Part shown: piece by piece, positions 21,384-27,955 of the stretch
Position numbering within the stretch: the stretch's first letter is position 1
Layout of the letters: every line of letters starts with the position of its first letter
Assembly (NCBI RefSeq): GCF_006385685.1
Contig: NZ_VFRP01000004.1
Span: 186,001-250,000, forward strand
Length of the DNA: 64,000 nt
Source: Amaricoccus solimangrovi
GTDB lineage: Bacteria; Pseudomonadota; Alphaproteobacteria; Rhodobacterales; Rhodobacteraceae
Direction of reading: 5' to 3'
Translations under genes and position numbers: made by a program
Notes under the pieces: model-generated
Told to the model about the DNA's origin: nothing
The model's input: only the letters and a program-made list of their open reading frames with translations
Databases searched by the model: none

Positions 21384-22280
21384 TCAGTTGACCGAAGGCA
21401 CGAGACCGGTCTCGGCGGCGCGCTCGCGCATCACCTTCTGCAGCTTCTCGAAGGCGCGGACCTCGATCTGGCGGATGCGCTCGCGGCTGACGCCGTATTC
21501 CTGGCTCAGGTCCTCGAGGGTCATCGGCTCGTCCTTCAGCCGCCGCTCGGTCAGGATGTGGCGCTCGCGCTCGTTGAGGCTTCCCATCGCCTCCATCAGC
21601 AGGCCCTGCCGGCTCTCGAGCTCGTCGCGCTCGGCGAGCGCGGCGGCCTGGTCGGCGTCCTCGTCCTCGAGCCAGTCCTGCCACTCCGCCGTGCCCTCGC
21701 CGTCGCCCTTGATCTGGGCGTTGAGGCTCGCGTCGCCGCCCGACATCCGGCGGTTCATCGAGATCACCTCGTCCTCGGAGACGTTGAGGTCATGGGCGAT
21801 CCGCGTCACGTTCTCGGGCCGAAGCTCGCCGTCCTCGATCGCGCCGATCTTGTTCTTCGCCTTGCGCAGGTTGAAGAAGAGCTTCTTCTGCGCCGCCGTG
21901 GTGCCCATCTTCACGAGGCTCCACGAGCGCAGGATGTATTCCTGGATCGAGGCGCGGATCCACCACATCGCATAGGTCGCGAGGCGGAAGCCCTTCTCGG
22001 GCTCGAACCGCTTGACCGCCTGCATCAGGCCGACATTGGCCTCCGAGATCACCTCGGCGATCGGCAGGCCGTAGCCGCGATAGCCCATGGCGATCTTGGC
22101 GGCGAGACGCAGATGGCTCGTCACCAGCTGGTGCGCCGCGTCCGTGTCCCCGTGATCGACCCAGGCCTTGGCCAGCATGTATTCCTGCTCGGGCTCGAGC
22201 ATCGGGAACTTGCGGATCTCCTGCATGTACCGCGACAGACCCTGTTCGGGCGACGGCGCGGGAAGTTTCGTATAGCTCAC
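21384..22280 (-). CDS. rpoH: RNA polymerase sigma-32 factor (heat shock)
   Basis: 298 residues. It has sigma-70 family regions 2 (ISEANVGLMQAVKRFEPEKG, FRLATYAMWWIRASIQEYIL) and 4 ([21 protein letters not shown]-like, near residue 260). Between them is the RpoH box QKKLFFNLRKAKNKI, which identifies it as sigma-32 rather than a housekeeping sigma. The start is a GTG at 22280 with GAGAGGAGG upstream. A GC-rich hairpin sits just upstream of that ribosome-binding site. Some alphaproteobacteria have two rpoH genes; only one is in this window. Confidence 0.96.
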   Translation of the reverse strand: MSYTKLPAPSPEQGLSRYMQEIRKFPMLEPEQEYMLAKAWVDHGDTDAAHQLVTSHLRLAAKIAMGYRGYGLPIAEVISEANVGLMQAVKRFEPEKGFRLATYAMWWIRASIQEYILRSWSLVKMGTTAAQKKLFFNLRKAKNKIGAIEDGELRPENVTRIAHDLNVSEDEVISMNRRMSGGDASLNAQIKGDGEGTAEWQDWLEDEDADQAAALAERDELESRQGLLMEAMGSLNERERHILTERRLKDEPMTLEDLSQEYGVSRERIRQIEVRAFEKLQKVMRERAAETGLVPSVN

Positions 22281-23797: not shown

Positions 23798-25786
23798 ATG
23801 TCGCTTCCCCCCGGTTTCATCGACGAACTGCGCGATCGCGTGTCGCTCGCCCAGGTGATCGGGCGCAAGCTGACCTGGGACAGGAAGTCCAACGCCGCGC
23901 GGGGCGACTACTGGGCGCCCTGCCCGTTCCACCAGGAGAAATCGGCCTCGTTCCACGTCGATGACGCGCGGGGCTACTACTACTGCTTCGGCTGCCACGC
24001 GAAGGGCGACGTGGTGACCTTCCTGCGCGAGACCGAGAATCTCGGCTTCATGGAGGCGGTGGAGCGGCTCGCCGGGATCGCCGGCATGACCATGCCCGCC
24101 CGCGATCCGGAGGCGGCGAAGCGCGCCGAGAAGCGCAACGGCCTCGTCGAGGCGATGGAGGCGGCGGTCCAGTTCTACCGGATGAACCTGCATGGCGCGC
24201 GCGCGATCGAGGCGCGAAGCTATCTCGACCGCCGGGGGCTGACCGCCGGCACCCAGACGCGTTTCGACCTCGGCTACGCCCCCGACAGCCGGACGGCGCT
24301 GATCGAGCATCTGAAGGGCAAGGGCTTCGCGGTCGAGAAGATCGTCGAGGCGGGGCTCGCCGGGGTGCCGCGCGAGGGCGGCGCGCCCTATGACCGTTTT
24401 CGCGGCCGGATCATGTTCCCGATCCGCGACGCCCAGGGCCGCGCCATCGCCTTCGGCGCCCGCGCGCTCGGCCCGGGGCAGGAGCCGAAATACCTCAACT
24501 CGCCCGAGACGCCGCTCTTCGACAAGGGCCGCGGCCTCTACAACATCGGCCCGGCCCGCGCGGCGGCGGGCAAGGCCGGGACGATCCTCGTCGTCGAGGG
24601 CTACATGGACGTGATCGCGCTCGCCCAGGCCGGATTCGAGAACGCCGTCGCGCCGCTCGGCACCGCGATCACCGAGACGCAGCTGCGGACCTTCTGGCGG
24701 ATGACGCCGGAGCCGCTCGTCATGCTCGACGGCGACGCGGCGGGGCTGCGCGCGGGGCAGCGGCTGATCGACCTCGCGCTGCCGCTTCTCGGCGGGGGCC
24801 AGTCGCTGCGCTTCGTGATCCTGCCCCCGGGCCAGGATCCCGACGACGTTCTGCGCGACGGGGGGGCGGCGGCGATGACGGCGTTGATCGGCGCGTCGCG
24901 GCCGCTGCTCGACCTGCTCTGGAGCCGGGAGACCGAGGGCGCGGTGCTCGACAGTCCGGAGCGGCGCGCCGCGCTCGACGCGCGGCTGCGCGCGCATCTC
25001 GGCAGGATCGCGGACCCGGGCCTGCGCGCGCATTACGAGGCCGAGATCCGGACGCGCCGCGCCGAACTCTTCGCGCCCCGGCGCGACGGCGCGGCGGCGG
25101 GACGGCGGACAGGCGGAACGCGCAAGGCGGCCCCGCCGCGGCGCGGCCGCGCGCCCGCGGGCGGACCGGTCGCGAGCACGCGCGCCTCGCTGCTCGCGCG
25201 GGGCGAGGCGGCGATCGCCGAGGCGCGGGTGCGCGAGAGCGCGATCCTCTACGGCTGCCTGAACCACCCCGAGATCGCGCTGGCGCAGGAGGAGCGACTC
25301 GGCCGCGCCGATTTCCACTGCGCCGATCTCGCGGAGATTCGCGACGCCCTCTTGTCCGCGCTGCTCTCCATCCTAAATGGCGAATCGCGCGCCGAATCGG
25401 TGGCGACTCTCGTGGCACGGCGGCTGGGGCGGGACGTGTTGGCGGATCTCGATTGTCTCGGACAGGTTCGGGCGAACCCGCATCTGCGCGCCGACGCGGA
25501 TCCGGAGAAGGCCGCGCTCGCGGTCGAGGAGGAACTGATCCGTCAGGCGGCGCTGACCGGCTGGCTGGCCGAGACGCGCGACGCGGCGGCCGGGCTGAGC
25601 CGCGACACGGTGGACTGGATCGGACCGAGATTGCGCCGCGCCGCCGAGGCCGCGCACGAGGCGGGCATCAGGCCCCTCGCCGGGGAAAACGCCGATCTCG
25701 GGATCGAGCGCGAGGAATTCGCCTCCACGCTGGCAAGCGTGGAAGAGCAGCAACGGGCGCACAGGAACCGGAAGCGAAAATCCTGA
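23798..25786 (+). CDS. dnaG: DNA primase
   Basis: 662 residues in the normal order. An N-terminal zinc-binding domain (CPFHQEKSASFHVDD, YYYCFGCHAKGDVVTF) supplies a CHCC set. The catalytic core has the Toprim motif LVVEGYMDVIALAQAGF and the metal-binding VMLDGDAAGLRAG. After a Pro/Arg-rich linker (about 430-460), the C-terminal part contacts the helicase. It makes RNA primers at the replication fork. The Shine-Dalgarno before ATG 23798 is weak. rpoD follows, matching the dnaG-rpoD arrangement of many bacteria. Confidence 0.97.
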   Translation: MSLPPGFIDELRDRVSLAQVIGRKLTWDRKSNAARGDYWAPCPFHQEKSASFHVDDARGYYYCFGCHAKGDVVTFLRETENLGFMEAVERLAGIAGMTMPARDPEAAKRAEKRNGLVEAMEAAVQFYRMNLHGARAIEARSYLDRRGLTAGTQTRFDLGYAPDSRTALIEHLKGKGFAVEKIVEAGLAGVPREGGAPYDRFRGRIMFPIRDAQGRAIAFGARALGPGQEPKYLNSPETPLFDKGRGLYNIGPARAAAGKAGTILVVEGYMDVIALAQAGFENAVAPLGTAITETQLRTFWRMTPEPLVMLDGDAAGLRAGQRLIDLALPLLGGGQSLRFVILPPGQDPDDVLRDGGAAAMTALIGASRPLLDLLWSRETEGAVLDSPERRAALDARLRAHLGRIADPGLRAHYEAEIRTRRAELFAPRRDGAAAGRRTGGTRKAAPPRRGRAPAGGPVASTRASLLARGEAAIAEARVRESAILYGCLNHPEIALAQEERLGRADFHCADLAEIRDALLSALLSILNGESRAESVATLVARRLGRDVLADLDCLGQVRANPHLRADADPEKAALAVEEELIRQAALTGWLAETRDAAAGLSRDTVDWIGPRLRRAAEAAHEAGIRPLAGENADLGIEREEFASTLASVEEQQRAHRNRKRKS

Positions 25787-25797
25787 GCATTTGAGAC

Positions 25798-25830
25798 GAA
25801 TCATTGCGAATCATTGCGAATCACTGATTC
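25798..25830. promoter_or_regulatory. Cluster of four GANTC sites in the dnaG-rpoD gap
   Basis: GAATC occurs at 25798, 25808 and 25818 in a 10-base tandem repeat (unit GAATCATTGC), and GATTC at 25826. The last copy forms the palindrome GAATCA-C-TGATTC (25818-25830). GANTC is the target of the CcrM DNA methylase of alphaproteobacteria, so methylation-sensitive control of rpoD is possible. A repressor or activator site spaced at about one helical turn is the alternative. Confidence 0.5.
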
Positions 25831-25894
25831 GTGCGAGACATACCGAGACTTCTCCCGAACGGGATCCCCCGGGACGCAAGGCATGGAGTTGAGA

Positions 25895-27955
25895 ATGGCG
25901 AAAGACATGGAGCCGCGCAAGCCCGAGGAAGGCCAGGACAACTCCGGCCCGATGCTGGACATGAGCCAGGCCGCGGTCAAGAAGATGATCGCGGCGGCCA
26001 AGGCTCGCGGCTATATTACCTATGACGAACTGAACCAGGTCCTGCCGCAGGATCAGGTGTCCTCGGAGCAGATCGAGGACGTGATGGCGATGCTCAACGA
26101 GATGGGTATCAACGTGACCGAGGCGGACGACAGCGACGACGAGGAAGAGGGCGGCGAGACCGCCGAGGCATCGGAATCCGACAGCGGCTCGCGCGAGCTC
26201 GCGGTCACCTCGGTCGGCGGCGAATCGCTCGACCGGACCGACGATCCGGTGCGCATGTACCTGCGCGAGATGGGTTCGGTGGAGCTCCTGTCCCGCGAGG
26301 GCGAGATCGCGATCGCCAAGCGCATCGAGGCGGGGCGCAACACGATGATCCTCGGGCTCTGCGAGAGCCCGCTCACCTTCCAGGCGATCACGATCTGGCG
26401 CGACGAGCTGCTCGACGAAGCCATCATGCTGCGCGACGTGATCGACCTCGAGACCACCTTCGGCGCCTCGATGGAGAGCGACGAGGTCGAGAGCGTGCTC
26501 TCGGCGCTCAAGAGCACCTCCGATCCGCTCGGCGAGCCGGCGCCCGGCCTTCGCCCCGCCCGCCCGGCGCCCGCGGCCGCCCCGGCGCCGGCCGCCGCCC
26601 GCGACGCGCAGGCGGCGGACGAGGAGGAGGAGGAGGACGGCGCCCCCACCCCCGCCGACGAGGAGGAGGAGGAGGATCAGGGCAACCTGTCGCTCGCCGC
26701 GATGGAGGCGGCGCTGAAGCCGCAGGTGCTCGAGACGCTCGACCGGATCGCCGGCGATTACGCGCGCCTCGCCGAGATGCAGGACAGCCGCATCTCCGCG
26801 ACGCTCAATCTCGACGAGACCTTCTCCTCGGGCCAGGAGCGGGAATACCAGCGGCTGCGCGGCGAGATCGTGGAGCTCGTGAATTCGCTCCACCTGCACA
26901 ACAACCGCGTCGAGGCGCTGGTCGACCAGATCTACGGGATCAACCGCAAGATCATGGCGCTCGACGGCGCGATGGTGAAGCTCGCCGACCAGGCGCGGAT
27001 CAACCGCCAGGAATTCATCGACGAATACCGCGGCACCGAACTCGAGCCCGGCTGGCTCGACCGCGTCGCCAGGCTCGGCGGCCGCGGCTGGGACCAGCTC
27101 GCGACGCGCTACCGCGACAAGGCGGAGGACATCCGCTTCGAGATGGCCGAGGTCGGCCAGTATGTCGGCGTCGACATCTCCGAATTCCGCCGCATCGTCT
27201 CCCAGGTCCAGAAGGGCGAGAAGGAGGCGCGGCAGGCGAAGAAGGAGATGGTCGAGGCGAACCTCCGCCTCGTGATCTCGATCGCGAAGAAATACACGAA
27301 CCGCGGCCTGCAGTTCCTCGACCTGATCCAGGAGGGCAACATCGGGCTGATGAAGGCGGTCGACAAGTTCGAGTACCGCCGGGGCTACAAGTTCTCGACC
27401 TATGCGACCTGGTGGATCCGGCAGGCGATCACGCGCTCGATCGCCGATCAGGCGCGCACGATCCGCATCCCGGTCCACATGATCGAGACGATCAACAAGC
27501 TGGTCCGCACCGGCCGCCAGATGCTCCACGAGATCGGCCGCGAGCCGACCCCGGAGGAGCTGGCCGAGAAGCTGCAGATGCCGCTCGAGAAGGTCCGCAA
27601 GGTGATGAAGATCGCCAAGGAGCCGATCTCGCTCGAAACGCCGATCGGCGACGAGGAGGATTCGCAGCTCGGCGATTTCATCGAGGACAAGAACGCGATC
27701 CTGCCGCTCGACAGCGCCATTCAGGGCAACCTGAAGGAGACGACGACGCGGGTGCTGGCCTCCCTCACCCCGCGCGAGGAACGCGTGCTCCGGATGCGCT
27801 TCGGGATCGGCATGAACACCGACCATACGCTCGAGGAGGTCGGCCAGCAGTTCAGCGTCACCCGCGAACGCATCCGCCAGATCGAGGCGAAGGCGTTGCG
27901 GAAGCTGAAGCACCCGAGCCGGTCGCGGCGGCTCAGGAGCTTTCTGGATCAGTAA
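25895..27955 (+). CDS. rpoD: Housekeeping sigma factor (sigma-70)
   Basis: 686 residues from [14 protein letters not shown], supported by GGAG six bases upstream. Region 1.1 lies at about 20-75 ([20 protein letters not shown]), region 1.2 near [17 protein letters not shown], and a non-conserved region follows. Region 2 is [20 protein letters not shown] to [20 protein letters not shown], and region 4 ends with [18 protein letters not shown]. Between regions 1.2 and 2, residues about 213-263 are Pro/Ala-rich and then carry runs of Glu. This acidic insert is common in alphaproteobacterial RpoD but marked here. It is the main promoter-recognition subunit of RNA polymerase. Confidence 0.97.

Follow-up and report, generated by a model that had tools for sequence, protein, structure and literature searches.

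The GANTC cluster between dnaG and rpoD

In the window (the whole 64-kb stretch of Amaricoccus solimangrovi DNA that was analysed, on contig C71), dnaG is followed on the same strand by rpoD, and the gap between the two genes holds four GANTC sites. GAATC starts at 25798, 25808, and 25818, and GATTC starts at 25826, giving spacings of 10, 10, and 8 bp. The cluster (25798–25830) lies 64 to 96 bp upstream of the rpoD start, a codon that we picked by similarity to relatives. The features of the locus are as follows, in window coordinates:

23798–25786, + strand: dnaG, DNA primase, the upstream gene (NCBIfam TIGR01391, 392 bits, cut-off 284)
25787–25894: dnaG–rpoD gap of 108 bp, home of the cluster
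25797–25803, − strand: site 1, TGATTCG (CGAATCA on the + strand), within 10-bp repeat unit 1 (25797–25806); fits YGAKTCK
25807–25813, − strand: site 2, TGATTCG, within 10-bp repeat unit 2 (25807–25816); fits YGAKTCK
25814–25819, + strand: tentative −35 element TTGCGA, from alignment; weak, the consensus scan giving no sigma-70 promoter
25817–25823, − strand: site 3 (site A), TGATTCG, the genus-conserved copy
25825–25831, + strand: site 4 (site B), TGATTCG, 8 bp from site 3
25837–25842, + strand: tentative −10 element GACATA, 17 bp after TTGCGA, from alignment; weak, missed by the scan
25895–27955, + strand: rpoD, housekeeping sigma-70 (NCBIfam NF004208, 909 bits, cut-off 555)

All four sites are strictly TGATTCG or its complement CGAATCA, and the broader motif YGAKTCK is matched by 4 of 4. 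They originate in a direct repeat with a 10-bp unit (CGAATCATTG, CGAATCATTG, CGAATCACTG), which continues into TGATTCG. An initial annotation of this DNA had reported four GANTC within 33 bases between dnaG and rpoD, which we confirm. It had also placed them in helical phase, a description that suits sites 1 to 3, which are exactly 10 bp apart, and fails for site 4, at 8 bp. The last copy had been called a perfect palindrome; this is loosely right, in that sites 3 and 4 together form the inverted repeat CGAATCA-C-TGATTCG, whose centre is odd.

A consensus scan of the rpoD upstream region returned no sigma-70 promoter. The tentative TTGCGA-17-GACATA pair would place site 4 in the promoter spacer, a weak assignment that comes from the alignment. 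In Caulobacter, starts with GANTC between the −10 and −35 elements are described as forming a class that is activated at a time of its own (PMC4287350).

Two further observations concern the neighborhood. Toward its 3′ end, dnaG contains five GANTC in 114 bp (25296, 25336, 25382, 25394, and 25405), of which three fall in a stretch of 28 bp. On the − strand at 21384–22280, roughly 3.6 kb from rpoD, an ORF resembles an RpoH-type (sigma-32) factor as judged by eye; if it is one, two sigma-factor genes lie close together.

GANTC is sparse on the host contig, with 323 sites in the 271,875 bp of C71, or one per 842 bp, and the earlier estimate of one per about 360 bases was thus too generous. Among the 430,675 bp examined (C71 whole, C60 in part), the rpoD cluster is the sole window with 4 GANTC in 33 bp. 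Its raw density is matched on contig C70, where 4 GATTC lie within 28 bp (C70:16319–16346), none with YGAKTCK flanks. The surrounding stretch (C70:16292–16371) has six GATTC/GAATC in 80 bp, again lacking YGAKTCK flanks; it lies between ORFs and resembles a small repeat. The spaced triple GANTC-N5-GANTC-N5-GANTC occurs once in the A. solimangrovi genome, and it was found in 3 of 60 relatives with different sequences and on contigs other than that of rpoD.

The flanked motif sets the locus apart further. In 12 other GANTC-group stretches of the same genome, chosen from GANTC pair lists (genome-wide lists that leave aside the pair type GATTC...GAATC), we found no instance of three YGAKTCK within 45 bp. 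On C71, rpoD is the only group of at least three YGATTCG in 60 bp, alongside three further pairs, and the 158.8 kb read from C60 contain no YGATTCG pair in 60 bp. In 400 kb of a complete relative genome (G083; stretches sampled at intervals plus the rpoD stretch), the sole place where as many as two YGATTCG fall in 60 bp is rpoD.

Overall GANTC counts fall below expectation, with 93 in the window versus 371 and 372.5 in two runs of dinucleotide-preserving shuffles, and 323 on C71 versus 729 expected from independent bases. We draw no conclusion from this depletion about selection by CcrM: palindromes of the same composition occur 225 to 617 times on C71. GANTC in alphaproteobacteria is described as under-represented overall and enriched between genes (PMC3973325), so a mild intergenic excess is to be expected anyway.

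Conservation, motif, and spacing in the Rhodobacteraceae

We searched 121 relatives, obtained an rpoD match in 117, and read the upstream DNA of 70 Rhodobacteraceae loci and of 39 alphaproteobacterial genomes of other families; G093 and seven other-family genomes are absent from these sets, and the other-family set (n = 40) includes a second rpoD-like copy of the family member G074. In a 140-bp promoter window, the 70 family loci carry a mean of 3.41 GANTC, compared with 0.82 after shuffling and 0.26 in upstream coding DNA. The 40 other loci carry a mean of 0.35 (27 with none, one with two). Of the 70 family loci, 64 have at least two YGAKTCK upstream of rpoD and 56 have three or more. A set of 80 named loci found by RpoD similarity, which overlaps partly with the 70, gives 74 and 72, respectively; genera carrying the sites in this named set include Ruegeria, Rhodovulum, Paracoccus, and Jannaschia. 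G076, a genome with no site in the narrow 140-bp window, does carry three sites, roughly 110 bp farther upstream. We found that 90% of the 239 GANTC in family promoters fit YGAKTCK, versus 35% of the 93 in the 64-kb window and 52% of the 52 in upstream coding DNA. The frequencies per 200 bp are 3.74 GANTC and 3.34 YGAKTCK upstream of rpoD in the 70 loci, 0.19 and 0.05 upstream of gcrA in 21 control genomes, and 3.0 and 1.1 upstream of ccrM in the same 21 genomes. The initial annotation had proposed looking for the same cluster upstream of rpoD in relatives, and a GANTC cluster is indeed conserved there across the family.

The 10-bp register is not part of what is conserved. All ten congeners carry TTGCGAATC (site A), eight of them have the A-8-B pair, and the tandem 10-bp triple occurs in 0 of 10, which leaves helical phasing unsupported as the essential feature. 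We reject 10-bp phasing as a family trait; what is conserved is a set of YGATTCG sites that favor spacings of 8, 13, and 21 bp. The essence of the locus is a conserved multi-site element of GcrA/CcrM type at the sigma-70 gene, which the phased copies merely embellish locally.

A rough RpoD tree (67 rows of at least 300 residues, several of the CcrM-lacking rows being long branches) groups A. solimangrovi with its congeners and with an Amaricoccus MAG (L021, at zero branch length to congener G010), with a bootstrap that did not converge; G424 and G247 are scored as bearing the cluster in this tree solely through a wider window. The rpoD element looks like an invention of the family, since GcrA matches occur in 29 of 48 other-family genomes and the rpoD cluster is no feature of those families. 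It follows likewise that GcrA alone does not predict the cluster.

Substitution counts define the motif. The 70 loci contain 157 exact TGATTCG versus 3.3 in shuffles and 56 first-base variants versus 12.9, of which 48 are CGATTCG, whereas changes at the remaining positions are near or below chance (central base, 7 versus 5.8). Thus, the selected motif is YGATTCG. Because the central base is constrained and CcrM does not need it, methylation alone does not explain the motif; the constraint indicates that a protein, most likely GcrA, recognizes the motif together with its flanks. We name GcrA as the candidate reader mainly because the motif that we derived agrees with its published extended motif: GcrA activation in Caulobacter is described as using TGATTCG and, more broadly, YGAKTCK (PMC7987155). 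The GcrA targets of Brevundimonas are described in the same source as not showing this preference (PMC7987155).

Spacing is also uneven. Among 351 pairs of neighboring GAWTC sites 5 to 40 bp apart, from 150 loci that are not independent of one another, 49 are spaced 8 bp, 59 are spaced 13 bp, and 50 are spaced 21 bp. All three of the A, B, and C sites are kept in 8 of the 150 loci, and none of the 8-, 13-, or 21-bp pairs is present in 38. Since 8 + 13 = 21, the family plausibly started from an A-8-B-13-C arrangement, with members later losing one site.

CcrM and GcrA across the family

The A. solimangrovi genome encodes both proteins. The gcrA gene (C71:34513–35109) scores 158 bits, above the Pfam cut-off, and less than 1 kb beyond it an ORF at C71:35972–37033 matches CcrM, with CcrM itself (PDB 6pbd, E 7e-167) as its best solved-structure match. 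The same contig carries rpoD, at a distance of about 175 kb from both genes. The ccrM gene whose presence the initial annotation had proposed to verify is therefore found. Neither protein reaches its NCBIfam equivalog cut-off (CcrM, 639 of 830 bits; GcrA, 152 of 280 bits), these cut-offs having been set on Caulobacter-type sequences, and the PF18284 profile, which represents the wrong family for CcrM, has no match in the genome. Within the family, methylation of GANTC by CcrM has been demonstrated in Paracoccus aminophilus, as described in PMC3925955.

Among the family genomes that are at least 90% complete (395), we detected CcrM at E ≤ 1e-60 in 384 and no such match in 11. In three genera, g15 (G024, G421), g54 (G063, G424), and g84 (G093, G440), neither of the two species sampled has a CcrM match at this threshold, and these absences are possibly real losses.

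Presence of CcrM is associated with the rpoD sites. At least two sites occur in 75 of 83 genomes with CcrM versus 3 of 9 without it (92 genomes, Fisher p 0.0003, kinship ignored), in a sample that was deliberately enriched for absent or divergent CcrM and from which G093 and G440 (each with a match that lacks the N-terminus) and G156 (no match) were excluded. In the unselected 70 loci, CcrM accompanies 63 of those with at least two sites and 4 of those with fewer, and it is missing from 1 and 2, respectively. The 8 of 83 CcrM-bearing genomes with fewer than two sites comprise six divergent-CcrM lineages (G018, G027, G235, G386, and G438 with no sites, G406 with one) and two congeners, G001 and G008, which have one site each despite CcrM. 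Exceptions in the other direction are G004, G163, and G240, in which two to four sites are kept and CcrM was not found; assembly gaps could account for the missing gene. G260 and G063, with no CcrM found and no sites, are nested in tree groups that mostly bear the cluster, and several deep lineages bear CcrM and lack the rpoD cluster. With exceptions on both sides, we reject a rule by which presence of CcrM equals presence of the cluster.

A candidate replication-linked element at the sigma-70 gene

The cluster probably serves the rpoD promoter as a regulatory element of GcrA/CcrM type that ties sigma-70 synthesis to replication. In the proposed mechanism, CcrM would methylate the GANTC cores at rpoD, and GcrA bound to sigma-70 RNA polymerase would recognize methylated YGATTCG within the core promoter or adjacent to it. 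We infer that the outcome would be activation of rpoD transcription by this complex rather than repression. Passage of the replication fork would leave the sites hemimethylated until CcrM acts again, and rpoD expression would be expected to shift with replication of the locus. GcrA is reported to act as a cofactor of sigma-70 in Caulobacter. Because GcrA works through sigma-70, a feedback loop may result, in which the GcrA–sigma-70 complex controls the sigma-70 gene. Several sites in place of one might make the response stronger or steeper.

This arrangement resembles the sigma-70 promoters controlled by GcrA and CcrM in Caulobacter, described for ctrA P1, ftsZ, and mipZ, in having upstream GANTC, the YGAKTCK motif, and a genome that encodes both CcrM and GcrA. 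It differs from them in that the target is the sigma-70 gene itself, with three to five sites at 8-, 13-, and 21-bp spacings, and in being recognized here from sequence alone. As described for Caulobacter, more than one site within 50 bp is present at 11 of 96 cell-cycle-regulated starts with GANTC (PMC4287350). In another alphaproteobacterium, Brucella abortus, CtrA is described as binding the rpoD promoter (PMC2877005), a precedent for a cell-cycle master regulator at rpoD. The Brucella case differs in its regulator, CtrA, and in the motif of that regulator, which the family rpoD loci lack (see below).

We weighed four other explanations against the GcrA/CcrM reading. The sites could be operators for another, uncharacterized YGATTCG-specific protein that controls rpoD, with GANTC incidental and methylation playing no part or a secondary one. 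Such a protein would fit a motif constrained beyond GANTC (central base included), the preference for 8-, 13-, and 21-bp spacings, the retention of sites in G004, G163, and G240, and the near confinement of the cluster to rpoD in the sampled stretches, as for a dedicated regulator. We nevertheless think it unlikely, given that the derived motif coincides with the published extended motif of GcrA, that 6 of 9 CcrM-less genomes lack the cluster, and that the operator patterns of LexA and CtrA are absent from 70 of 70 loci. The LexA operator, which we take to be GTTC-N7-GTTC or one of the variants tried, and the CtrA operator TTAA-N6/7-TTAA (exact pattern only) each occur in 0 of 70 family loci, and we reject both as the identity of the sites. 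The pattern GTTC-N7-GTTC is also given in PMC7987155.

Methylation by CcrM might instead act on the rpoD promoter directly, through binding of polymerase or a repressor and without GcrA. Every site has the GANTC core, and the ccrM leader, where about one of three conserved GANTC fits YGAKTCK, indicates that methylation-only control may exist in the family; at rpoD, though, the flanks and the central base are selected and are unneeded for CcrM methylation, and we regard direct action as quite improbable. It is very hard to credit that the cluster forms a hairpin or terminator in the RNA of the rpoD leader, an idea that draws on the inverted repeat of sites 3 and 4. Folding of the cluster is no better than that of shuffles (z 0.27), a terminator scan of the leader and an Rfam search both gave no match, and neighboring sites in many relatives are direct repeats (GATTC-13-GATTC) that are unable to pair. 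We thus set aside hairpin, terminator, and Rfam element alike. Tandem slippage in A. solimangrovi could have produced the two extra 10-bp units, which are found in 0 of 10 congeners and may well be neutral. As an account of the cluster as a whole, a neutral accident has almost no standing and is already contradicted by conservation: 64 of the 70 family loci and 74 of the 80 named ones keep the rest of the cluster, with motif and spacing constrained.

If the GcrA/CcrM reading is correct, the cluster suggests a tie between the cell's basic capacity for transcription and DNA replication in the Rhodobacteraceae. It would add another main target and offer a plausible route for coupling total transcription capacity to chromosome replication. 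A stronger version, which we put forward tentatively and think somewhat less probable than its negation, is that the GcrA/CcrM system of the family has been rewired: rpoD would be its principal family-wide target, fork passage would reset a multi-site methylation switch, and the GcrA–sigma-70 loop would scale global transcription capacity with chromosome replication. The cluster is relevant to rewiring of the GcrA regulon and provides a concrete promoter that can be tested in tractable strains.

We found no published description of this GANTC cluster at rpoD in the texts on CcrM, GcrA, and rpoD that we examined, although supplementary tables could list rpoD. An alphaproteobacteria-wide comparison used one representative per order, and the word rpoD is absent from its main text (PMC7987155). 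Earlier comparative work suggested that methylation might have little importance for gene regulation in the Rhodobacterales.

The ccrM leader of the same genomes also carries a conserved upstream GANTC group. It is unlike that of rpoD in its spacing, in its mixed central bases, and in its 1.1 versus 3.34 YGAKTCK per 200 bp. In A. solimangrovi (G000:C71:35847–35885) and in the loci L314–L333, three GANTC upstream of ccrM surround a TTGAC-like hexamer. In 19 of the 21 genomes these sites are spaced 22–24 and 11 bp, a regularity that suggests a conserved methylation feedback on ccrM.
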